From positions 1-28,606 of the IMG/VR virus record IMGVR_UViG_3300023091_000015: DNA of 28,606 nt; one strand, written 5' to 3'. Numbering within the stretch: position 1 is the stretch's first letter; each line of letters starts with the position of its first letter. The position numbers and the translations under genes were made by a program. Of this stretch, positions 15,379 to 28,606 are shown piece after piece. The notes beneath the pieces were generated by a model. It searched no databases, was not told the origin of the DNA, and saw only the letters and a program-made list of their open reading frames with translations. This DNA is from a virus.

Positions 15379-17622
15379 TTATGAATAATTCAAAGTATAT
15401 GTACAATAAATTCGTGGAGAATCGTCGATAGGATCGTTTGGGTATCTTACAAATGTGTAGATTGATGTTGTATTTGGTTCTGGTGCGGGCGCAGACACAC
15501 CATAGGGAAAATGAATTCCAGGATTTCCGTCAATAGTCCAAGCCATCAAAGGATATTCCGTATTGGAATATGATGAATTGTTAGTTATATTGAGTTGCAC
15601 TGTTTCACCAACGGCAAAATCAGCAGACAAAAAATTAACCGTATTGCCATAATTGTTAAAAGTAAGCACCCAGGCACTGTAGGTATTACCATTAATATTT
15701 ACGGTATTTGAGGTTTGAGAGCTTACATTGATAGAGGGACTCATGGTAAATATTGGGTTTGGATTACTGGCTGGACCCTGTATTCCTTGTGGGCCAATGG
15801 GACCAGCGGGTCCAGGAGAACCAAGACCACCCAAGTTCATGGCAATACTGTTAAATTGATTCCAATACATATAAGAACCATTTAATCCCACGGGAGCATA
15901 AGGAGTGTTTTGTACAAGTAAACTTATACTTCCAGCGGTTGCATTAAAAGATTCAACAAAGGAATAAAAATATCTTGCACCAGGATAGTCATTATCCGCA
16001 ATAATAACACTTTGCCAGGGAGAATAAGCCTTACCAATGAGATCATTATGTTGAAATTGAATGGCGTCCCCACCTTGAAAATACATTTGATTTCCAGTAC
16101 AATATGTCCATGTACTGCTACCATTAGACATTTTGTTTAGTGATGGGGAAATACCCGATGTGGCATTAATGGTATTAGTGGCAAAATAACATACATATGT
16201 ATCTGCAAAACCTGGCGCGCCAGCCTGACCCGCCACACCATTTGGACCTTGTGGTCCAGTAAGTCCCATCGGACCCGTAGGACCCATTGGCCCCACTGCA
16301 CCACCCATTGGTAATGTCAATAAAGGACTGGTCGAACCATCAGAGTAAAACAATTGCATTTGCGACCCATTACTAGTGGCTCCTGTGATGCCAACCCCAG
16401 GGTTTCCTCCGTTACCCGCTGGTCCAATGTCTCCTTGTGGGCCAGGAACACCCATTGTTCCTGCTGGTCCTGCTGGACCCACTGGACCAAAGTAATCACA
16501 ATATAAATTACCAAGAACCACACCACCATAGGTTTGTTCTCCGTTAGTCCCAAAAAGTTGGCCATTAAGATTATATCGGGCAAAACCATAATAGTATGCC
16601 GAACTGGCCCCCAAAGAGATATTGAATGAAATCGAACGTTTGTATGGGTCTTCAACAATATTCTGCAAAACAGAACTATCATCAATATAGTTTATTGGAT
16701 TAAAACTTACTTCTGGATAGACAACCCGACCCGTATATGTGGAATCTGGAACAGCAATACCCCAAACAGTAAAACGAAGATAACCAGTCGTACCATATTC
16801 ATCAATAAAGAAATTGGTATTATAAGGTGTTCCAGAAACAGTGACGGTACTGAGATTTAAACCACTTTGACCAATGGTATATCTCATGCCTTTGATGAAA
16901 TTTAAATCAGGATTTATGTTTGTACTGGGATTGACGTTATAAATGTCAATGGCGGGGGCAATTTGATGCTCCATCACGCCAGTAATCTGACTACAATCAA
17001 TAAAAATACCCCCAGCCACGCCCTGTTGTCCCTGCGCCCCGCTTGCTAAAAGAATGAATGTTCCGCTCGTTCCATTTGAAAACACGGGCTGAACATAATT
17101 GCCGCTTTGATTAAAACGGGATAGTGAAGCTCCTGTTGGTCCCATTACTCCCGTGGCACCTGACGGAAGTGAAATTGGATTGCTTTGCGTGGCATCCGAG
17201 TATTGCAGGACCATATTGCCGTTAAGGGCGTATGCTCCTGTAATGCTGCGTCCCGTTGCCCCCACTGGTCCTGTTGCTCCCACTGGTCCCTGTGGGCCGA
17301 TAATTGATAATCCCTGGGCCGTAGATGAAATGAGATAACCATTGATGTTAAGGTATGCTGTATTACCACTGACGGTTGAAGTCAAAAAAACATTTGGGCC
17401 AAAGAAAATACCACTGCCAGATGGAAGAAATAGACTGTTTGTGGCAACCTGGCTGAAAGGCAATAATGGAGACCCAAGCGCAAAAGACCCCGACCCAGTT
17501 GGAGAGAGAGTCTTTCCACTGAACCCTATACCGTTGCTCTGAAGGATGGGATTAATGACTCCCCCAATAAATCCAGATAGATCGGCCTGATTAAGTTGTC
17601 TGATGCGTATGCTGCTGTCCAT
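15379..17622 (-). CDS. Collagen-like virion fibre protein, 747 aa
   Basis: Gly-X-Y collagen-like blocks lie at about residues 109-127, 155-165, 195-204, 379-414, 440-472 and 598-617 (for example GPVGPAGPAGTMGVPGPQGD), separated by globular beta-rich inserts. Such blocks form trimeric rods in phage fibres. The N-terminus SIRIRQLNQADLSGFI resembles that of the 706-aa tail protein, suggesting a common docking peptide. Residues 127-166 and 411-451 are an internal duplication (ITGA, then YSD, then LP.G, then MGPTG). No signal peptide is present. The position between large terminase and portal is unusual for a fibre and may indicate a head fibre or a recent insertion. GTGTAAT stands 14 bases before the start. 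Confidence 0.8.
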   Translation of the reverse strand: MDSSIRIRQLNQADLSGFIGGVINPILQSNGIGFSGKTLSPTGSGSFALGSPLLPFSQVATNSLFLPSGSGIFFGPNVFLTSTVSGNTAYLNINGYLISSTAQGLSIIGPQGPVGATGPVGATGRSITGAYALNGNMVLQYSDATQSNPISLPSGATGVMGPTGASLSRFNQSGNYVQPVFSNGTSGTFILLASGAQGQQGVAGGIFIDCSQITGVMEHQIAPAIDIYNVNPSTNINPDLNFIKGMRYTIGQSGLNLSTVTVSGTPYNTNFFIDEYGTTGYLRFTVWGIAVPDSTYTGRVVYPEVSFNPINYIDDSSVLQNIVEDPYKRSISFNISLGASSAYYYGFARYNLNGQLFGTNGEQTYGGVVLGNLYCDYFGPVGPAGPAGTMGVPGPQGDIGPAGNGGNPGVGITGATSNGSQMQLFYSDGSTSPLLTLPMGGAVGPMGPTGPMGLTGPQGPNGVAGQAGAPGFADTYVCYFATNTINATSGISPSLNKMSNGSSTWTYCTGNQMYFQGGDAIQFQHNDLIGKAYSPWQSVIIADNDYPGARYFYSFVESFNATAGSISLLVQNTPYAPVGLNGSYMYWNQFNSIAMNLGGLGSPGPAGPIGPQGIQGPASNPNPIFTMSPSINVSSQTSNTVNINGNTYSAWVLTFNNYGNTVNFLSADFAVGETVQLNITNNSSYSNTEYPLMAWTIDGNPGIHFPYGVSAPAPEPNTTSIYTFVRYPNDPIDDSPRIYCTYTLNYS

Positions 17623-17648: not shown

Positions 17649-20600
17649 TCAAATCATCATGGGTTCAAATGTTTCTAAACTCGTGGGTTGGAAGGCCATG
17701 ATATCGTTATATGACTTCATACACCAAGCTGCCAACATACATGCGGTATAACTATCTCGTCGCATTCTACTTGCCGTATTATCCCGTTTCATCACCAGGG
17801 GAAGATCAAAACTCTGAACTCCGCGCTGGGAAGTCTTTACTTCAATGGAGGCACACTGATATTTTGTTTGTTTGCATAAAATTTCCTGACGATCAATCAT
17901 ATAACCCATGGGGGTTTCATTTTTATCGTCCAAATCTTTGTTTGCAAAAACTTGTTTGAAATCAATTGGCAAAGAAGCAATCTCATTAAACACTTCTGGA
18001 CATCCCTTGATACTGCCGCCGAACCAAAGACGTTTGTAATCAAAACATCCCTGCAACCATTCGTTGGCCTTGCGAATAAAGTCGCTCGTGAAGTATTGAT
18101 TGAAAACTATGCGTCCAATCTGCTTGTTGTATGAATTGCGGGCCTTGCGCAATTCTTCATTGTATTCTTCCCCGTCTTTCTCAGAAGTAAAATCAAAAAT
18201 ACTCAAATTCATATTGGCATCACGGAACAATTGACTCTCATTGGCAGCTTCAATAAATTGATAACCAGCATAGTCAATAATAATCATATCAATGCCGAAG
18301 TTGGTCAGGATATAATGCAAATAACGAATGTGATCTTTCAAGTCTTTTCCTGATTCGGCATAAGTATGAGCCACGGTTCCCCCTTTGCCGTTATCATCCA
18401 ATTCCACTACGCACATGGCAAAATCGTCACCCGTTGGTGAGTTTGAAAAGTCGGGGTCAATGGCCAAAATGTATTTTTTATCCCGTTTACCACGCACAAG
18501 TAATGTGGGTTTTTCCCCATCTGGCACAGTACATGCAATCATTTTTTGCATGGAAAAGTAACTGTCGGAGCCGTCCAAAAATTGGGCACAGTATTCTCGT
18601 TTGAAAGTGGCCATATTAGACTCGTTAGTCTGGGCCATTTCAATGATACTTTTATCCATACGATCCTCTGGAATGGCATCCCAGGATAACTGTGATACAA
18701 AGTACTTGGCCCCTTCGTCAGGCAAGTCGGGGCTGTAAATTTTTTTTACGTAATCGTCGTACTTTTTGTACAAATATTCACAGGTATAACTGGCTGATGA
18801 CAGGGCTATTAGTTTGGCATTGCCAGTAAATTTGGTGCGTTCCGTTTCGGTGATGATTCCCCTCTGAATCAAGTCACTTTCCTTGTCACGAATTTGCTTA
18901 CGACGTTTAACCTCAGCCGAAGTGGGTGATACAAGATAAGGAATTAAGACTTTTTCCACCAAATCCTCAGACATCAAAAGAAACTCGTCAATCAGAAGTA
19001 CGTTGGCGCGGAAACCACGAATCTTTTCGCCGTTTAGGGGAATGGCCACAATTTCCCCACCATTGATACTCCAACGGAACTCGTCATTACGACGTACCTT
19101 AAAATCAACATTAAAAGCGGCGGCCAACATCTGAGCTTCAGGTTGATTGACAATCTTTTCAATATGGTTAAAAATGAAACGGGCTGTACGGAAGGTGGGG
19201 CCAGCAATTAATATAGACGACTTGGGAAAGAAGATCATCTGCAAGATGCAATAGACTGCCGCCGTCCAGGTATTATGAGAGATAAAACCATTTGACCAAT
19301 ACATTTCTCCATCTGGAATATTAAAATCCAAACAATCCCGACCACCAATATCTTCAATTGATTCTACCTGATCAAAAAAGAAATGTTCGTTTTTAATAGA
19401 TTTAAGATTTTCTATATGTTCTCCTGTGATACCAGCCCGAACGAAGAACTCTAAATAAGAGTCTAAAGTATCATAAGTTAGATTTAGTTGATTGTCTTTA
19501 CGGCGAATTTTGTTACGCCATTCATCAGATAAGATTTTTGGAAGACGAGCCTTAGACTTAATTTCTCGTTGGCAGTATTCTTTAAGACCTGGGATAACAT
19601 CTATGTTGGTATTATAATTGCCATTTAAAAGATGCTGATTTAAAATATTCTGTTTTCGTGAGAGACGAAAACCAATTTGTTCCGAAAATATTCGGCAATC
19701 TTGACCAGTAATGATAACTTTCCATGCATGGCCAAATGGTGATGGGATTTTATATTCCATTAAATGGGAAACAATTCCAAAAGTTAAAAGGGCGAAATGA
19801 ACCTGTCTTGCCATTTCAATGGAGGTGGAACAATATTCCACAGTCAACTGCGACGAAGTAACGCATCCATCCGTGTCAAACAAACCTTGAAGACAAGCCT
19901 TTAGCATTTGTTTTGAAGAAAATATTGTTTGAGGGATTATTTTATCATATGAAAGTCCGCGTTTTACTTGATATTTTCCAAGAAATTTATCAATTATGTC
20001 TTTGGGAAAATATAAATCCCATGCCCTTGTATTTTTTTTAAGATGAATATTCGCCCCATATTTTAGACAAAAATCAGATATTTCTTCATCTGCCGTAGTA
20101 ATTTCTGTTGAGGGGTTGTGGGAAGAAATACAACCGTCTCCCAATATTAAACCAATTAAATAAGATTCATTTGCATCGGTTGCTTCTCCCCATTCATTCT
20201 GACGATTTCTATTAATACAAATATAATCGTCTTTGGTAATTTCTGGATATTTTTTCCAAACCACTTTGCATTGAGTTTTATCCCAAACTTTTATAATATG
20301 AGTTTTGGCCCCCTCTAAACTATAGCCTCGTTTGGTTTTAATTCTTAAAGAATCTTTTTTGGGTTGAATAAATAGTTTAGATGTTGCCTGCCATCCAGAA
20401 CCGTTCCAGAATTTTCTAGTTGGAATATTAACCTCTTGATCTTTTGAAAAGTCTAAATTAGGGAAAAGGTCTTTAAGAAGTAGCAGACCTTTTTCTTGAT
20501 CAATAACCCATGTATTAGAATAACTTACCGATTTTGATACGCCGCGCCCCCAAACACACAAGGTATAATTGCTTTGAAGCATTCCTTTAATAGTGATAAT

Positions 20601-20777
20601 TTGATCAGGGTAAAGATCAATTCCCGTCAAGAAATTGGTGGTAATACCCAGGTTGCGATAAAGGAACTTGGCCAGGGTAATCTTGGCTTGTATGTCGTCC
20701 AATTCCCCCTTGAGAGCCTTGGCCTCAATGTTGAAATCTAGGACTTCTTTACTATACTTCGTAGGACTGTGCCACAT
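17649..20777 (-). CDS. terL: Terminase large subunit with an intein in Walker A, 1042 aa (622 after splicing)
   Basis: This is the packaging motor ATPase and nuclease. The spliced sequence reads WGRGVSK then TWTAAVY, restoring a full Walker A (residues 77-82 plus T503). Walker B is VLLIDEF with D597 and E598. The nuclease domain shows YILAIDPD (D774), MIIIDYAG (D835) and RRDSYTACMLAAW (D1008), the expected acidic set of the RNase H-like fold. The extein length of about 620 residues is normal for large terminases. The intein spans S83-N502. A purine-rich ggaaggag stands upstream of the ATG, within the end of the HNH gene, which overlaps this one by 26 bases. Activity in packaging requires the intein to be removed, because it splits the P-loop between Lys and Thr. 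Confidence 0.93.
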   Translation of the reverse strand: MWHSPTKYSKEVLDFNIEAKALKGELDDIQAKITLAKFLYRNLGITTNFLTGIDLYPDQIITIKGMLQSNYTLCVWGRGVSKSVSYSNTWVIDQEKGLLLLKDLFPNLDFSKDQEVNIPTRKFWNGSGWQATSKLFIQPKKDSLRIKTKRGYSLEGAKTHIIKVWDKTQCKVVWKKYPEITKDDYICINRNRQNEWGEATDANESYLIGLILGDGCISSHNPSTEITTADEEISDFCLKYGANIHLKKNTRAWDLYFPKDIIDKFLGKYQVKRGLSYDKIIPQTIFSSKQMLKACLQGLFDTDGCVTSSQLTVEYCSTSIEMARQVHFALLTFGIVSHLMEYKIPSPFGHAWKVIITGQDCRIFSEQIGFRLSRKQNILNQHLLNGNYNTNIDVIPGLKEYCQREIKSKARLPKILSDEWRNKIRRKDNQLNLTYDTLDSYLEFFVRAGITGEHIENLKSIKNEHFFFDQVESIEDIGGRDCLDFNIPDGEMYWSNGFISHNTWTAAVYCILQMIFFPKSSILIAGPTFRTARFIFNHIEKIVNQPEAQMLAAAFNVDFKVRRNDEFRWSINGGEIVAIPLNGEKIRGFRANVLLIDEFLLMSEDLVEKVLIPYLVSPTSAEVKRRKQIRDKESDLIQRGIITETERTKFTGNAKLIALSSASYTCEYLYKKYDDYVKKIYSPDLPDEGAKYFVSQLSWDAIPEDRMDKSIIEMAQTNESNMATFKREYCAQFLDGSDSYFSMQKMIACTVPDGEKPTLLVRGKRDKKYILAIDPDFSNSPTGDDFAMCVVELDDNGKGGTVAHTYAESGKDLKDHIRYLHYILTNFGIDMIIIDYAGYQFIEAANESQLFRDANMNLSIFDFTSEKDGEEYNEELRKARNSYNKQIGRIVFNQYFTSDFIRKANEWLQGCFDYKRLWFGGSIKGCPEVFNEIASLPIDFKQVFANKDLDDKNETPMGYMIDRQEILCKQTKYQCASIEVKTSQRGVQSFDLPLVMKRDNTASRMRRDSYTACMLAAWCMKSYNDIMAFQPTSLETFEPMMI
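19272..20531 (-). mobile_element. Intein with LAGLIDADG endonuclease in terminase Walker A, 420 aa
   Basis: The N-end is Ser1 in SVSYSNTWVIDQEKG. The C-end is FISHN followed by extein Thr, the normal Asn plus Thr junction. Two LAGLIDADG motifs are visible, YLIGLILGDG (D214) and LQGLFDTDG (D303), so the homing endonuclease looks intact. Block B reads GAKTH, with Ala where the usual Thr of T-x-x-H stands. Block F reads IPDGEMYWSNG, with Glu where a His is usual; the penultimate His501 is present. Splicing may therefore be slow or conditional, which is inference. The insertion site is the most conserved DNA in the gene, typical for homing elements. Confidence 0.92.
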
Positions 20778-22266: not shown

Positions 22267-23353
22267 TGATAATACCCTCCTTGCTTAAACCCAATATGCG
22301 GGCCTTAAAATCGGGCAATGAACTTAAGCGGGCCACTTCGGTCTTCATGGCCTCCTGTTCTTTCTCGGCATGTTTCAACCATTCCTTGCGGCCCTCTTCA
22401 GTCTTCCAGTGATTAACCAAATCCAAAATACTTGAGGCCCCCTCGCGTTGTTTGGAAATGCGCTCGCTACGAGACACTGACAAAGTATCAAGCAGGTCTT
22501 GTTCGCGCTTTTTGCACAAATTGAATTCAGTACTGGCCTTGCCAATGGCTTCAACCAGACCCATGCAGTATTTTCGGCTATCGGGGTCACTGGCATCAGC
22601 CATTTCTTCCTGCTGGTGCTGGAGTATTTCTTTTCGTCGTTGAATTTTGAAACCCTCAACAACTTGATTGGCATATTCGATGTATTGGTCAACTTCGGTT
22701 TGCGCCAAATCAGGCTTGTCATAGGTGGCGCGGACAAATGCGTCCTCACACAGGGAACGGTCGCTCACCGATTCATAATTGTTCATCTGAGCAGTATAAC
22801 GATAGGTGTGCATGTAACCAATCAACGTGTCAAGATTCTTTTTCCAAGCCGCCGTCAGTTTATCCTGTTCCATGGGCGGATTAATGTAACGATTGACCAC
22901 CCGCAAAACCGCCTCTGGTGTTTTGGGTGGAAAATACTTGCCATCGGGGATGTCCATATCCTCGGCATGACGCACGCGAATATTCAAAGTTTTAATGTAT
23001 TTATTGACGGCCAGGGCCTCGGCGGCCAGATTACTGAGATTTGGGTTATTAAATAGAACACGGGAAATTTGAGCACTATTCATTGACTGAACATTATTGG
23101 CAATGTAAAGTTTCTGCTCATCACTAAGCTCAATCAGATCGGAAACACGTTGATACTCAGAAGTGGTTTGAGCTTTGAGATTTCGGCTCGAAAGAAACTT
23201 TTTGATTGCCTTCGCCTCATTAGTACGGCCATCATGGCCATCACCAAACACGGAAATAGTCAAATCCTTCAAAGCGGGTGGAGTTTCAGGATTGGCATTC
23301 CAGAGATCAACCACTTGTTGTTCCTGGGCGGGAGTTAACGTCAGGTCAGTCAT
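22259..23353 (-). CDS. Possible terminase small subunit, 364 aa
   Basis: No diagnostic motif was found; the call is from position. It begins the run that leads through nuclease and HNH to the large terminase, and its start overlaps the sigma-like gene by the 4-base ATGA. The N-terminal 130 residues contain helix-turn-helix-like segments (LSDEQKLYIANNVQSMNSAQISRVLF, then a second around NLAAEALAVNKYIKTL), fitting DNA recognition. The remainder is highly helical and charged, with probable coiled coil (EGFKIQRRKEILQHQQEEM, and KHAEKEQEAMKTEVARLSSL) suitable for oligomerisation. Length is above the usual small-terminase range, so a different DNA-binding packaging or recombination protein is possible. 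Confidence 0.5.
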   Translation of the reverse strand: MTDLTLTPAQEQQVVDLWNANPETPPALKDLTISVFGDGHDGRTNEAKAIKKFLSSRNLKAQTTSEYQRVSDLIELSDEQKLYIANNVQSMNSAQISRVLFNNPNLSNLAAEALAVNKYIKTLNIRVRHAEDMDIPDGKYFPPKTPEAVLRVVNRYINPPMEQDKLTAAWKKNLDTLIGYMHTYRYTAQMNNYESVSDRSLCEDAFVRATYDKPDLAQTEVDQYIEYANQVVEGFKIQRRKEILQHQQEEMADASDPDSRKYCMGLVEAIGKASTEFNLCKKREQDLLDTLSVSRSERISKQREGASSILDLVNHWKTEEGRKEWLKHAEKEQEAMKTEVARLSSLPDFKARILGLSKEGIING

Positions 23354-24024
23354 ATAATATCAATATCGCCGTTCGCCAGGCATTTTTTTACTTTAACCAT
23401 GATGATTTTACGTATGTTACGAATCTGTTTATAGCGCGGCTTTCTATCCTTCTCATTGGAACTGTAACCCAGACGCTTTGCAACTTCATCCTCATCCAGA
23501 TTTAAAATGAATAATCCCTCATAGACCCGCCACTCGGTTGGCTTTAAAATCTCCTTCATGCGATCATGCAATTTATCGGCATGTCTGGATACATCAGTGG
23601 AATCATCAAAAATACTCCTGACTTCATTTTGATGATTTTCAATGGAGACGGGTATTTTGATTTGGGTGGCGGGCATTTTCCGTTTCACCCAATGAGCATA
23701 CAATGGACAAGCGACGCACTGCGTCCCATAAATAACGCAGCCCGTCATGTCTTTGGCAGCCCCGCACTTGAGACACGGACGGGCAAAATTTGAATAATGG
23801 TTGCGAATGAGATTTCTAATCTGATTGGTAATGATGATGTTAAGCCAGGGGGCCAGGGGTTTGCTTTCATCATATTGCGCCCATTTGTTGTAAATGTGAA
23901 TTCTAATGATCTGAGATACATCGTCATAGTCCATCCAAGTTAAAGAAGTCAAGTTCCATTTGTGTTTTCGCTTGGCAATTTCTTCATCAATGATCTTGAT
24001 ACTTTCTTCAAATGTGGCTTTCAT
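23350..24024 (-). CDS. Sigma-70-like factor with an internal cysteine cluster, 224 aa
   Basis: Residues 28-78 fit sigma region 2: WMDYDDVSQIIRIHIYNKW, then APWLNIIITNQIRNLIRNHY. Residues 84-106 hold five cysteines (C84, C87, C96, C103, C106), probably a zinc-binding insert. The C-terminal 65 residues (TEWRVYEGLFILNLDEDEVAKRLG, then a basic helix) fit region 4. It may redirect host RNA polymerase to late promoters, like T4 gp55, to which it has general similarity only. It is placed just before the packaging genes, with a 4-base overlap, so it may drive the operon that includes it. The GTGTAAT words in this window are candidate targets. Confidence 0.72.
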   Translation of the reverse strand: MKATFEESIKIIDEEIAKRKHKWNLTSLTWMDYDDVSQIIRIHIYNKWAQYDESKPLAPWLNIIITNQIRNLIRNHYSNFARPCLKCGAAKDMTGCVIYGTQCVACPLYAHWVKRKMPATQIKIPVSIENHQNEVRSIFDDSTDVSRHADKLHDRMKEILKPTEWRVYEGLFILNLDEDEVAKRLGYSSNEKDRKPRYKQIRNIRKIIMVKVKKCLANGDIDII

Positions 24025-24473: not shown

Positions 24474-24980
24474 ATGAATCAGCCAGAAGTACGCGCATTT
24501 CAGACACTCACAAACGAGGAAAGGGTCGAGTTCTTTTTACAGGGCCAGAAGTTACTATTGGAATTTCACCCAAATAGCCCATTTGTCATCCACAAACATA
24601 CTCTAAATGAACGCATGGAACATTTGAAAGTATTGGCGGCCCAATATCAAGGTTTAACCTACAAAGATGATAATATCTGCATCCTATTCAATAAAATTTA
24701 TGTCGCCGACGAAAATGACCCAGTAACGGCCCTGGCCCAATCAAAGTTCAAGCCGCCCCATGCCAATTATAATGGCGTAAGCATTGACTTCGTGGTGTTC
24801 CGAAAATTGAAGGACTGCGCCGAATGGTGTAAGCGTTATCACGAGCAACGCATCCAGCACGTTCTTTATGTCAAAAATGGCAAACCTCAAATATACAAGC
24901 CAATGGACCTCATGAAGAAAGTTTTCAACCTTACTTCTCCTGCGCATCCAAATCTTCCATCAGTTCCACAAGCAGTTTAG
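24474..24980 (+). CDS. Hypothetical protein, 168 aa, plus strand
   Basis: No family is recognised. The sequence has an ordinary soluble composition with aromatic and basic residues (EERVEFFLQGQKLLLEFHP, DFVVFRKLKDCAEWCKRYHE). It is one of the few plus-strand genes. Its 3' end overlaps the end of the PhoH gene by 50 bases in convergent orientation. Its start is 47 bases from the divergent zinc-ribbon gene, so that A/T-rich gap (24427-24473) should hold promoters for both. Codon-level plausibility and the absence of a competing long frame support it as real. Confidence 0.6.
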   Translation: MNQPEVRAFQTLTNEERVEFFLQGQKLLLEFHPNSPFVIHKHTLNERMEHLKVLAAQYQGLTYKDDNICILFNKIYVADENDPVTALAQSKFKPPHANYNGVSIDFVVFRKLKDCAEWCKRYHEQRIQHVLYVKNGKPQIYKPMDLMKKVFNLTSPAHPNLPSVPQAV

Positions 24981-26736
24981 TTAAATCATCGCGCATAATG
25001 TCGGCCCTGGTGAACTCAAAGTAGTGAATCCCGCCCGCCCGACCTTTCTCTTGAGTGAAATGTTTGGCCAACTTGGTAAACCCCCCGCGCTTCTTTGAGT
25101 CTTTTAGGTCTGATTGTCTTGGGTCGGCCAAAATAAACAGCTTGCTGAACTTACCAACGCGAGTCATGATGGTGAAGATTTCATCCTTGGTCATGTTCTG
25201 GCAATTGTGGACAATAACTCCTGAATTATTTTTTAACATTCCCCTTGTTTTTGAAGCAATAATAAAATTATGATTATCCTCCACTTCCAAGTCAAATACA
25301 TTTTCAACGGAGGCTGGACTAATAGAGTCAAAAATAACATGATTATAGGGTAAAAAAATATTATTCCATTTGTACTTTGTATGTGAATTTATGTTTTTAT
25401 AATCCATGGATTCATGAATATATGGGGAGATTTTATCCAATAGTTTTATTGTATTTTCCTTGTCAAAAACCAGACTAAAACATGCCTTTCCTCTTTTTGG
25501 ATACAGATCAAGATGATATTTGCATTTTATTCCAAGATTTTCAAATTTTTCCACAAATTTTTGTTGAGATTCCTCCGAAAAAGAACAAGTATAGATTTTT
25601 GCCCCGTTTTTTCCAGCGAAAATACTTCCGTCATCCATAAACCATATTCCTATGCCCCGCCAGTCCAATTCATCCAAAACCCATTGCGGACAATGAGACT
25701 TTTTATGATGAGCGAAATCTTTTTGGTCAAATGCAAAACACTTAGTGGCGAATTTTATGGCTGGTTTTTGACTGTAACCATTTTTCTCAATAATGGAAGT
25801 GGAAGAACCAAACATGCTGGCTTTCCACTGGCAATATTCCTGTTGTTTGATTCCATGGATAATTCTTAATCGGTTTCGATTAATCCCATGATTGCTAACG
25901 CCTCCATCCCCCAAAAAGCTGCCAAGAAAAACTTGTTTTTGATCGTCGTTAAGGGCATTTAAAACCTGATGACGATGTTCATCATTGGCCAGTAAAATGT
26001 CTCCTTTTTGAAGGTTTCGCGCCTCAACCCATCCTTTGCTGGTTAAAAATTTATGATTATCAGTGCATTGAATCTTTCGATTCCCCGCTCTAATAATGAC
26101 AGTTTCCCGTCGCCCATTGCAAATGATATTTTTGATTTTTTTAAATTCAAATTGTCTTGTGGTTTCGTTAAAAGTTTTAACCAAGGGCAATTGTTTTCCC
26201 AAATTATGATCTTTTTTTAAATTTGAAATAGTTTTGGTGCCATTTTCCAGAACAATTTGACTGTCTCCAGTCAAACATTCGTCGGCGATCGCCACTCGGG
26301 CGTTCCAACTTTGTCCACGAATATAATTCAATGGACGAAGATGCACTCGTTCATCAGCCAACAATGCTTTGATTTCAGGTTTGGTGAGCAGCTCTTCCAG
26401 CTTTTCCATGAGAGGATAGCCATAGTTCATCATTTTTTCGTCAACTGAACCTGGAAGAAATCCCAAACTCTCAGAAGAGCTTTCAACAGCCGACCGAAGA
26501 TAAATTATATCGGAAACCCGACGCTGGTTAAGCAATTCCAATGCGGCAAAGACTGCCATGATAGTTTTGGTACTGCCAGCAGGGCCGTTGACAAATATAA
26601 TTCTGGTTGATTTATCCAAAGCGAGTTTGAGGAACTCTTTTTGGCGATCAGTCCATGCTAATGGTTTAAGATCGAACGTATTCTTAATTTTATCCCGTTG
26701 TTGGATACGCTCAGACGTATCTTTTTTAGGTTTCAT
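24931..26736 (-). CDS. phoH: PhoH-like ATPase with an intein at Walker B, 601 aa (243 after splicing)
   Basis: Walker A is VNGPAGSTKT (residues 49-58). The spliced Walker B region reads VAIADE then CQNMTKDE, the conserved DE.QN motif of the PhoH family. IIYLRSAVESSSESLGFLPG and FILADPRQSD are other PhoH landmarks. The extein of 243 residues is normal for phage PhoH. Family members are P-loop ATPases common in aquatic phages; their role is still debated, and RNA handling is one proposal. The intein covers C154-N511. No Shine-Dalgarno sequence is visible; GTGTAAT lies 20 bases before the ATG, inside the divergent symmetric element at 26757-26777. Confidence 0.92.
   Translation of the reverse strand: MKPKKDTSERIQQRDKIKNTFDLKPLAWTDRQKEFLKLALDKSTRIIFVNGPAGSTKTIMAVFAALELLNQRRVSDIIYLRSAVESSSESLGFLPGSVDEKMMNYGYPLMEKLEELLTKPEIKALLADERVHLRPLNYIRGQSWNARVAIADECLTGDSQIVLENGTKTISNLKKDHNLGKQLPLVKTFNETTRQFEFKKIKNIICNGRRETVIIRAGNRKIQCTDNHKFLTSKGWVEARNLQKGDILLANDEHRHQVLNALNDDQKQVFLGSFLGDGGVSNHGINRNRLRIIHGIKQQEYCQWKASMFGSSTSIIEKNGYSQKPAIKFATKCFAFDQKDFAHHKKSHCPQWVLDELDWRGIGIWFMDDGSIFAGKNGAKIYTCSFSEESQQKFVEKFENLGIKCKYHLDLYPKRGKACFSLVFDKENTIKLLDKISPYIHESMDYKNINSHTKYKWNNIFLPYNHVIFDSISPASVENVFDLEVEDNHNFIIASKTRGMLKNNSGVIVHNCQNMTKDEIFTIMTRVGKFSKLFILADPRQSDLKDSKKRGGFTKLAKHFTQEKGRAGGIHYFEFTRADIMRDDLTKLLVELMEDLDAQEK
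25204..26277 (-). mobile_element. Intein with LAGLIDADG endonuclease in the PhoH-like ATPase, 358 aa
   Basis: The intein begins with Cys1 in CLTGDSQIVLENGTKTI and ends GVIVHN before extein Cys. Block B is CTDNH (T225, H228). Block F is FDLEVEDNHNF (H489), with an unusual insertion of about a dozen residues (KTRGMLKNN) before the C-terminal SGVIVHN. Two LAGLIDADG motifs, FLGSFLGDGG (D277) and GIWFMDDGS (D369), look intact. All canonical splicing residues are present, so efficient splicing is expected. The site splits the ATPase Walker B neighbourhood after DE. Confidence 0.93.
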
Positions 26737-26786: not shown

Positions 26787-26987
26787 ATGTACATAACAGG
26801 AACAATAATTGATTTTGCATCAAGACTTCATCAGCTAGCCACGACCACGGGTGATCTGGCCAATTTTAAAACAGAAGCGAGTGGATATTGGTCCACGTAT
26901 GATGCGAATACCCAGGTGAAACTTCAAACCGAAGCAAATTTAAAATTCACCCAATTGAATACGCCACAGACGGGGCTGTACTTCTAA
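26787..26987 (+). CDS. Small hypothetical protein, 66 aa
   Basis: No family is recognised. It begins MYITGTIIDFASRLHQLATT and ends QLNTPQTGLYF, a soluble, probably helical protein with no Cys. The start is 9 bases after a GTGTAAT word, which supports it being a real gene. It reads away from PhoH. The stop overlaps by 3 bases the stop of a possible minus-strand frame ending at 26984. Confidence 0.5.
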   Translation: MYITGTIIDFASRLHQLATTTGDLANFKTEASGYWSTYDANTQVKLQTEANLKFTQLNTPQTGLYF

Positions 26988-27301: not shown

Positions 27302-27347
27302 ATGCCAACTATGCGCAAGCTAGTTTCATGCCAACTATGCGCAAGCT
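27302..27347. repeat. Two 26-bp-period direct repeats, left flank of the GC-rich segment
   Basis: The 20-base unit atgccaactatgcgcaagct occurs at 27302-27321 and again at 27328-27347, identical in both. Degenerate relatives with the same 26-base period occur at 28334-28388, on the other side of the hairpin-chain ORF. Confidence 0.85.
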
Positions 27348-27492
27348 TAAAGCGTGCCAGCATCGCGCCGCGCGTTGAATTAAAAACAGTTTATCCGCTG
27401 GTGAATTAAGCGGTTCCATGGTATTTTTTCTTCACAACGCGGGGGGTAAACCCGCTGGCGTCGGTCCATAGCCGATTTGCAGAAAAACAAAA

Positions 27493-28275
27493 ATGAAAGT
27501 CATGGGAAACTTCAGGCTGGAATTCCCCCGCGCGGGGGATGTCCTAGACCTAGACGCGCAATGCGCGTCAAAGATGCTGATCAACGGGACCAGTGTCGTT
27601 GGGCAGACTCCCGCAGAGCGGGAGTTGGAAGCAAATCCTGAATTGGGTTGCTTCCATGTGGTAGGACACTGGATAGTTCCAAGTGTCCGCACGGGAGATA
27701 AAATCTCCCTATCAATCCCGTCAGGAAACCTGACGGGAACTGTGACAAGTGTCACGGTAAACAAGGATGGCGGACAAACCGCCATCACTGCTGGCCTATG
27801 GAGCGGCAGGAGTGGCGGGGTGGAAGGCGGATTGTCCGCCTTCATCTCTTTTTCCGTGGCGGGTGTCACGGAAGTTAGTGGCACCTTCGGGCGCCATACA
27901 AGCATGGCGGCCTATCGTGCCGCCCAAGCCGCGCATCGGGCGCGGCTCGTCCGCTGTGAGGCGGACGAAACGGGCCAAGACTGGCCCATGGGCCTTACTC
28001 CCTTGGGGGAAAGGCTTGCCCGCGAAGACGGGCGTCAGTTCGTCGGGGGGGGCATTCATGCCCCGTCCGAAATGGTTAGTTTCGGAGGAAGTGACTCCGA
28101 AATTTCTGTCGGTCAATGGGCTGACACGGTGGAAGCTAGGCAGGCAAAAGCAATGCGCTCGTCGCGCATTGCAAAGGCCATTGCAATGGGGGCGCATATC
28201 CCCCAAAACGCGGTGGACGTCGTTTTCGTCCACCCCCCGCAGGGGGGCAGAACAAGTTGGTCGTTCGTTATCTAG
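27493..28275 (+). CDS. Hairpin-chain ORF, unknown protein of 260 aa
   Basis: This is the longest frame in the GC-rich right end. The start may be 27493 or the second ATG at 27502 (MGNFRLEFPRAGDVLDLDAQ); upstream DNA is A-rich with no clear Shine-Dalgarno. The stop at 28273-28275 is 13 bases before a strong terminator, which supports this frame over the rival ORFs on both strands. The protein begins with beta-like segments (DKISLSIPSGNLTGTVTSVT) and ends with Ala/Arg-rich helices (SMAAYRAAQAAHRARL, RQAKAMRSSRIAKAIA). I recognise no family. Nearly every part of the coding DNA after codon 11 belongs to an inverted repeat, so it may be selected mainly for structure. Its G/C richness differs from every other gene here, suggesting another origin. 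Confidence 0.55.
   Translation: MKVMGNFRLEFPRAGDVLDLDAQCASKMLINGTSVVGQTPAERELEANPELGCFHVVGHWIVPSVRTGDKISLSIPSGNLTGTVTSVTVNKDGGQTAITAGLWSGRSGGVEGGLSAFISFSVAGVTEVSGTFGRHTSMAAYRAAQAAHRARLVRCEADETGQDWPMGLTPLGERLAREDGRQFVGGGIHAPSEMVSFGGSDSEISVGQWADTVEARQAKAMRSSRIAKAIAMGAHIPQNAVDVVFVHPPQGGRTSWSFVI
27525..28247 (+). repeat. Chain of about 25 distinct inverted repeats, nearly end to end
   Basis: Stems seen (5' arm / 3' arm): cccccgcgcggggg palindrome 27525-27538; gacgcgca/tgcgcgtc 27553-27569; actcccgc/gcgggagt 27607-27625; tggaagcaa/ttgcttcca 27626-27656; ggacact/agtgtcc 27664-27688; gggagat/atctccc 27693-27709; tcccgtcagg/cctgacggga 27716-27738; gtgaca/tgtcac 27742-27755; gatggcgg/ccgccatc 27766-27786; gaaggcgga/tccgccttc 27823-27843; ttccgtg/cacggaa 27852-27873; a ttcg-loop hairpin with one mismatch 27879-27896; cgccat/atggcg 27892-27909; ggcggc/gccgcc 27906-27924; agccgcgc/gcgcggct 27927-27947; tcgtccgc/gcggacga 27947-27968; gggcca/tggccc 27972-27987; gcccg/cgggc 28018-28033; ggggcat/atgcccc 28049-28064; tccgaaa/tttcgga 28066-28086; tttcggag/ctccgaaa 28080-28102; gcaatgcgc/gcgcattgc 28150-28172; ccattgcaatgg 28178-28189; tggggg/ccccca 28187-28205; ggtggacg/cgtccacc 28212-28234; cccccc/gggggg 28233-28247. 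The stems differ in sequence, so this is not one repeated element. Confidence 0.93.
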
Positions 28276-28288
28276 TTTCCCCATTCAC

Positions 28289-28323
28289 GGCGCAAGCGGT
28301 TTTTCCGCTTGCGCCTTTTTTTT
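28289..28323 (+). terminator. Strong intrinsic terminator after the hairpin-chain ORF
   Basis: ggcgcaagcgg (28289-28299) pairs perfectly with ccgcttgcgcc (28305-28315) around ttttt and is followed by eight Ts. It ends plus-strand transcription of the 27493-28275 ORF. Its stem contains the word gcgcaagc that recurs in the flanking repeats. Confidence 0.93.
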
Positions 28324-28333
28324 GTTTACCTAG

Positions 28334-28388
28334 TACCAAGGGCGCAAGCAAGTATCGCACCAACTACGAGCAAGCAAGTTCTATGCCA
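28334..28388. repeat. Degenerate 26-bp-period repeats, right flank of the GC-rich segment
   Basis: gcaagcaagt occurs at 28344-28353 and 28370-28379, 26 bases apart. Between them, ccaactacgagcaagc (28360-28375) differs at two positions from ccaactatgcgcaagc of the left-flank repeats (27305-27320). Both flanks therefore carry the same family in direct orientation, about 1 kb apart. Confidence 0.7.
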
Positions 28389-28452
28389 GCCCAAAAATTG
28401 AGTTTTTTTAGACTAAAAAGGGGTCCCGCCGAAAGTCTGAAAAAATCCAAAA

Positions 28453-28606
28453 CTTGGCGCGAAAATTGCTTGCGCCCCGCTTGGCGCGAAAATTGCTTGC
28501 GCCCCGCTTGGCGCGAAAATTGCTTGCGCCCCGCTTGGCGCGAAAATTGCTTGCGCCCCGCTTGGCGCGAAAATTGCTTGCGCCCCGCTTGGCGCGAAAA
28601 TTGCTT
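28453..28606. repeat. Perfect 27-bp tandem array running off the right edge
   Basis: Five full copies start at 28453, 28480, 28507, 28534 and 28561, followed by 19 bases of a sixth. Each unit is cttggcgcgaaaattgct followed by tgcgccccg, with no differences and no spacers. Within a unit ggcgc can pair with the downstream gcgcc, and equally with the gcgcc of the preceding unit (loop ccgctt), so alternative foldings run through the array. gcttgcgcc in each unit is the complement of ggcgcaagc in the terminator. Confidence 0.95.

Follow-up and report, generated by a model that had tools for sequence, protein, structure and literature searches.

An open reading frame (ORF), probably translated, close to the end of a phage contig carries a chain of short, mutually unlike hairpins that is far denser than in controls preserving the protein and the codon counts, coincides with one transcription unit and is absent from related phages. 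This is a strong and real anomaly and, so far, a single instance without homologues. The explanation that we favor, with a probability that we would put slightly below even, is that the ORF represents a protein-coding gene that was acquired recently and is transcribed independently, and whose entire transcript has been selected for local self-pairing, with shielding of the message as the likeliest benefit.

Source of the sequence and layout of the locus

The window, i.e., the whole stretch of DNA analyzed here (28,606 nt, positions 1 to 28,606 of the IMG/VR record IMGVR_UViG_3300023091_000015), comes from an uncultured phage and extends to a contig end. Profile searches identify terminase, PhoH and ERCC4-nuclease, and the terminase matches agree with the assignment to tailed phages in an earlier note that was made from the sequence alone. 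The phage genome is at least 112 kb in size, as pieced together from two contigs, G001 and G002, which, together with the window record, are separate records of one phage. Over 19 kb, 6 SNPs separate G001 from the window, and the hairpin gene is identical in the two records, so the hairpin chain is not an assembly artefact. Between the window and G002, which comes from another metagenome, there are 12 SNPs in 27.5 kb. The locus is present in G002 as far as position 27542, where the contig stops within the first palindrome; a hairpin that hinders sequencing or assembly might be the cause. At this locus, the genes on the left side point leftward, and small genes that point rightward begin. The features discussed below are the following (window coordinates).

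26787..26987, plus strand: gene for a 66-aa protein on the left side of the slot that holds the hairpin gene; conserved in the relatives L058, L059 and G003
27304..27360, minus strand: a pair of 26-nt elements resembling the iterated motif that flanks the gene, directed leftward (repeat search)
27395..27438, plus strand: putative promoter region containing CCGC-N11-GCGG, similar to the region upstream of the next plus-strand cassette (CTGGTGAATTAA...)
27439..28315, plus strand: hairpin chain, about 32 consecutive local hairpins, all unlike, from the 5' leader to the terminator (folding, shuffles)
27446..27495, plus strand: leader, GGTAAAC ... AAAAACAAAAATG, with a pattern common to neighboring genes
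27493..28275, plus strand: ORF of 783 nt (ATG..TAG) that bears the hairpin chain and encodes an orphan protein of 260 aa
28289..28323, plus strand only: intrinsic terminator, an 11-bp perfect stem (28289-28315) followed by T8 (terminator scan)
28347..28388, minus strand: two sigma-54-like -24/-12 elements (TGGYRYR-N4-TTGCT), directed leftward into the 3' end of the gene (pattern scan)
28453..28606, plus strand: 5.7 identical copies of a 27-nt repeat, every copy containing a sigma-54-like element TGGCGCG-AAAA-TTGCT, directed rightward (pattern scan)

Stem density, composition and folding energy

Stems were defined as perfect, non-overlapping inverted repeats of at least 7 bp with a loop of 0-8 nt. 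The ORF contains 13 such stems (10 with the threshold raised to 8 bp and 17 with it lowered to 6 bp), compared with means of 0.41, 0.10 and 1.6, respectively, in 1000 dinucleotide shuffles, for which the corresponding maxima are 3, 2 and 6. The estimate in the earlier note, about ten or more 8-bp stems where chance predicts well under one, is thus borne out. Codon-preserving shuffles, which leave the protein and the codon counts unchanged (n = 200), contain 1.1 +- 1.0 stems by the 7-bp definition and never more than 4. Given that no type of shuffled sequence approaches the stem density of the gene, the dense hairpin chain described in the earlier note is real. Elsewhere in the window, 750-nt blocks contain 0-3 stems of at least 7 bp, and no comparable stretch is found in the remainder of the phage (112 kb, G001 and G002). 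In 79 further loci from this phage family (1.08 Mb in total), the maximum is 6 stems, in AT-rich DNA, and in T4 and Bxb1 (50 kb each) and in lambda and phiC31 (whole genomes), the maximum is 5.

When the pair span is limited to 60 nt, the region of about 0.88 kb folds into 32 hairpin loops, with 63% of the bases paired. Alongside the perfect stems, the chain contains about 15 that are shorter or interrupted, which makes the spacing tighter than the 25-35 bases given in the earlier note. The chain does occupy positions 27525-28247, where it was first delimited, but is wider, extending from the leader at about 27439 to the stem of the terminator. The longest stem in the chain is 10 bp (27716-27738), next to 11 bp in the terminator. 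The stems have almost no mispaired positions in their interior (the Watson-Crick fold shows a single 1x1 mismatch) and are unlike one another, and no direct repeat within the gene is longer than 23 nt (74% identity), in agreement with the earlier inference that the array did not originate by copying of one palindrome. The 28 apical loops share no common motif. The GC content is 70% in the stems and 33% in the loops, compared with 43% at the unpaired positions of codon-shuffled copies; this composition fits selection for stable stems.

The folding energy leads to the same picture. The minimum free energy (MFE) of the ORF RNA is -419.8, against -311.2 for dinucleotide shuffles (z -13.9, an excess of 35%) and a mean of -322 +- 8.8 for codon-preserving shuffles (z -11). 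In a scan of z-scores for 150-nt blocks over the 112 kb, the gene forms the strongest cluster, a result that is less telling given that the blocks cut stems. A different kind of structure is found in the relative G003 (L046 2326-2618), where an intergenic region beyond the genes on the phoH side contains repeated palindromes (GTACGGATA..TATCCGTAC) that reach z -6.8 in one 150-nt block and, unlike the hairpin gene, are apparently non-coding.

Genomic context

In two relatives, L058 and L059 (72% and 69% identity, respectively, in the nearby sigma-like protein), the 66-aa gene and the gene to the right of the slot are homologous to those in this phage. In L058, the two flanking genes adjoin and the slot is empty; in L059, a LAGLIDADG homing endonuclease gene occupies it. 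On the strength of these arrangements, the hairpin gene is an insertion special to this phage. G003 (L046) has a different gene beside the 66-aa gene than L058 and L059 have, and the right boundary of the slot is therefore defined by the latter two loci. Phage morons offer a parallel: like them, the hairpin gene is an additional gene that has its own terminator and occupies a variable position, here between two genes that are direct neighbors in a relative. Of the features that define morons, the insertion between such genes and the terminator are seen directly, and the promoter is putative. We know of no phage moron with a comparable hairpin structure.

The hairpin chain fills a single transcription unit, starting just past the putative promoter and ending with the terminator. 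The similarity to the region upstream of the next plus-strand cassette suggests that 27395..27438 is the promoter of this gene; a scan of these positions for consensus sigma-70 promoters yields no match. The leader pattern, GGTAAAC followed by an A-rich stretch and ATG, recurs in neighboring genes and in G003, and in the hairpin gene, the GGTAAAC sits at the loop of the first hairpin. That the chain lies in one open frame closed by a strong terminator, as stated in the earlier note, holds for the ORF and terminator delimited here, and a 90% identical copy of this terminator follows the next cassette (G001:20171-20211). In L001 (8186-10240), small-gene cassettes are parted by a repeated element (core CCGCCGAAAGTCTGAAAAAATCC) and near-identical terminators.

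The iterated elements that flank the gene look like sigma-54 promoters in that they fit the -24/-12 pattern, and the contig ends within the rightward 27-nt repeat array. The pattern TGGCRYG-N4-TTGCT occurs 11 times in this phage, compared with 0.65 expected, and 13 times in L059, compared with 0.1 expected. In both phages, the sigma-54-like arrays (28347-28606 in the window; 2995-5496 in L059) are confined to the small-gene region beside phoH. It would be uncommon for a phage to rely on the sigma-54 of its host. Three unrelated contigs that match the pattern of the iterated elements do so inside coding genes, and these matches were judged to be due to chance.

The open frame and its predicted product

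Several lines of evidence suggest that the ORF is probably translated. The leader, together with a stop codon located 13 nt ahead of the terminator, fits the neighboring genes. G occupies 43% of the first codon positions, a bias in the same direction as in the other genes of the phage (0.28-0.36), and among the six frames, the amino acid composition is best in that of the ORF. Shuffling of the base pairs and of the unpaired bases with the structure left intact yields at least 255 consecutive codons uninterrupted by a stop, in any of the six frames, in 3 of 5000 trials. Finally, in 16 of 28 helices, codon position 1 pairs with position 3, compared with 7 and 5 helices in the other two registers. 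The neighbor-type leader, the codon-position bias, the rare open length and the helix register together support translation.

At the same time, the paired bases are spread evenly over codon positions 1, 2 and 3 (66, 66 and 63%, respectively), which implies that the stems have shaped the protein sequence too. Such accommodation of a protein to an RNA structure would be unexpected for a gene whose function lies in the protein. The 260-aa product shows no significant match in Pfam, PHROG, NCBIfam, PADLOC or PDB, and a single-sequence AlphaFold model has a pLDDT of 35. A homology search with both the protein and the DNA, the course advised in the earlier note, detects no homologue outside the same phage, with the protein compared to phages, plasmids, 84,980 genome species and IMG/VR.

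Proposed selection for self-pairing of the transcript

The match between the chain and the transcription unit, the GC-rich stems with AT-rich loops, and the lack of a common sequence or loop motif favor selection that acts on the transcript. Under this hypothesis, an RNA that runs from the gene's own promoter to its own terminator would form some 30 short hairpins without branches, their stems GC-rich and their loops AT-rich, and selection would act on pairing along the entire transcript, agnostic to the sequence of the stems or to any loop motif. The folded message would be poorly accessible to RNases specific for single strands and to annealing of antisense RNA, for which the two leftward sigma-54-like elements past the terminator could be a source. 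We infer from the above that the folded molecule is RNA rather than DNA; that shielding is the benefit is suggested by analogy with RNA viruses, in which coding RNA can be densely structured, a property linked to its shielding within the cell.

The closest analogy is with GORS, the pervasive ordered structure in the coding RNA of persistent RNA viruses, which consists of unbranched sequential stem-loops and is agnostic about which bases pair (PMC7642675). In both cases, coding sequence is filled with dense, sequential and largely unbranched stem-loops that share no repeated motif and exceed those of shuffled controls. In the hairpin gene, the excess of folding energy (z -11 to -14) extends throughout the coding region and, at 35%, is larger than the 7-24% reported for GORS. 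However, GORS spans whole RNA genomes of eukaryotic viruses, whereas the chain described here, with its near-perfect stems, is confined to one gene in a dsDNA phage genome of at least 112 kb. Thus, the hairpin gene appears to work like GORS and yet cannot be called a member of this class, which is defined for whole RNA genomes.

Among phages, the natural comparison, made already in the earlier note, is with the ssRNA phages of the class Leviviricetes, in which coding RNA also contains many adjacent hairpins. The comparison stands, with the hairpin gene being the denser: in a stretch of 783 nt, MS2 has at most 3 stems of 7 bp or more and Qbeta at most 6, compared with 13 in the hairpin gene, and an MS2 stretch of the same length has z -7.3, compared with -13.9; furthermore, the hairpin gene resides on a DNA genome. 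Derivation of the gene from Leviviricetes is not supported, as neither its DNA nor its protein has a match in 50,697 phage records, MS2 and Qbeta included.

If the transcript is indeed the target of selection, dense ordered structure would be selectable one transcript at a time. The gene stands out as a single dsDNA-phage gene with a signal beyond that of the RNA viruses tested, unique among 79 related loci, and makes a compact test case: the gene is only 0.9 kb long, and a version that lacks the stems can be set against the native one. A more specific version, in which the gene is dual-purpose, encoding a protein and at the same time forming a fully self-paired RNA, selected over its full length to leave hardly any single strand exposed, as a shield against an RNA-cleaving or RNA-guided host defence, such that counter-defence would reside within the message, seems quite improbable.

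Alternative explanations

The likeliest rival is the possibility raised in the earlier note that this is a structural RNA with a secondary ORF. In this case, the transcript would be a large non-coding RNA comparable to GOLLD and ROOL, and the open frame would be incidental or secondary. GOLLD (>800 nt) and ROOL (659 nt) adopt complex folds with pseudoknots or kissing loops (PMC12286853). The size of about 0.9 kb and the phage context are reminiscent of these large structured phage RNAs (0.6-0.9 kb), the product is an orphan, and pairing at codon positions 1 and 2 is as strong as at position 3. However, the hairpin gene is a string of simple unbranched hairpins with no complex tertiary fold and carries an ORF with several coding signals. 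A search against Rfam, including the GOLLD and ROOL covariance models, identifies no family at its cut-off (the GOLLD model searched alone is empty for the gene and for the controls as well), and a large non-coding RNA of phage ICP1 has one such stem in 1 kb, with z -2.2. The independent signs of coding weaken this reading without refuting it, and we consider it unlikely.

Alternatively, the stems could act in single-stranded or supercoiled DNA, as a replication origin, a priming region or a packaging or recombination site, with the iterated elements serving as protein-binding sites. Such a role would be compatible with the location of the gene at the switch between leftward and rightward genes, with the flanking iterated 26-27-nt elements, which cluster only in a 3.2-kb region around the gene out of 112 kb, and with the break of G002 within the first palindrome. 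The stems also fold alike on both strands (z of the RNA MFE about -13 on either strand for 27430-28330), and the strand test, G.U versus A.C, gives ratios of 16 to 11 at stem ends and 11 to 7 within helices, which are not significant; the sequence thus does not separate a role in DNA from a nuclease-resistant mRNA, both of them among the suggestions of the earlier note. Against a DNA role, GC skew shows no turning point at the locus, and the chain keeps to the bounds of the transcription unit. Moreover, relatives lack the hairpin gene, which argues against a conserved origin, and L059 has the same sigma-54-promoter-like elements without hairpins, ahead of ordinary genes. Overall, a function in DNA is decidedly unlikely.

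The chain could also be a functionless mutational by-product, with polymerase template switching between imperfect inverted repeats having perfected quasi-palindromes along the gene. Template switching is known to homogenize the arms of inverted repeats in coding genes (PMC8604942), and the near absence of mismatches in the stems is what it would produce. Copying of arms, however, predicts a composition close to the local one, contrary to the GC-rich stems and AT-rich loops observed; the effect is seen in no other gene of the 112 kb or of the 79 family loci; and the open frame of 260 codons survives. This origin of the chain is therefore very unlikely.

Equally doubtful, and very improbable in our estimate, is a decoy or sponge RNA that would titrate a host RNA-binding protein, such as a CsrA-like protein, RNase III or a phage-defence sensor. 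Sponges of the CsrB/RsmZ type are generally built of many stem-loops in series, and the chain matches this build; there is also a sub-threshold similarity to RsmW in Rfam (E 0.7, 21.7 bits compared with the cut-off of 52). Against this, GGA occurs 24 times, compared with 19 expected, mostly within stems rather than in loops, and the apical loops lack a shared motif. The earlier note had suggested a decoy for a host protein; a decoy for a CsrA-type protein is rejected on loop content. A group II intron, a retron, an attC array and repeated palindromic elements were dismissed because there is no reverse transcriptase at the locus and no shared repeat unit.

Other features of the phage

Apart from the hairpin gene, the window encodes a sigma-70 region 2 protein with cysteine pairs (23350-24024), relatives of which are present in more than 500 viral contigs, with at least 53% identity among the best 80, and which can serve to mark a large family of phages. 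The PhoH-like protein (24931-26736) and the terminase large subunit (17649-20777) both contain inteins with LAGLIDADG domains, and judging by their sequences, RecA-like and replicative-helicase-like ORFs elsewhere in G002 seem to bear inteins as well. At positions 425-648, 51-nt tandem repeats (4.4 copies) encode a repeated peptide on the plus strand, and the surrounding region has an 84% identical copy in G002, just beyond the window. A large protein with a match to collagen repeats, encoded at 15379-17622, is probably a virion protein.
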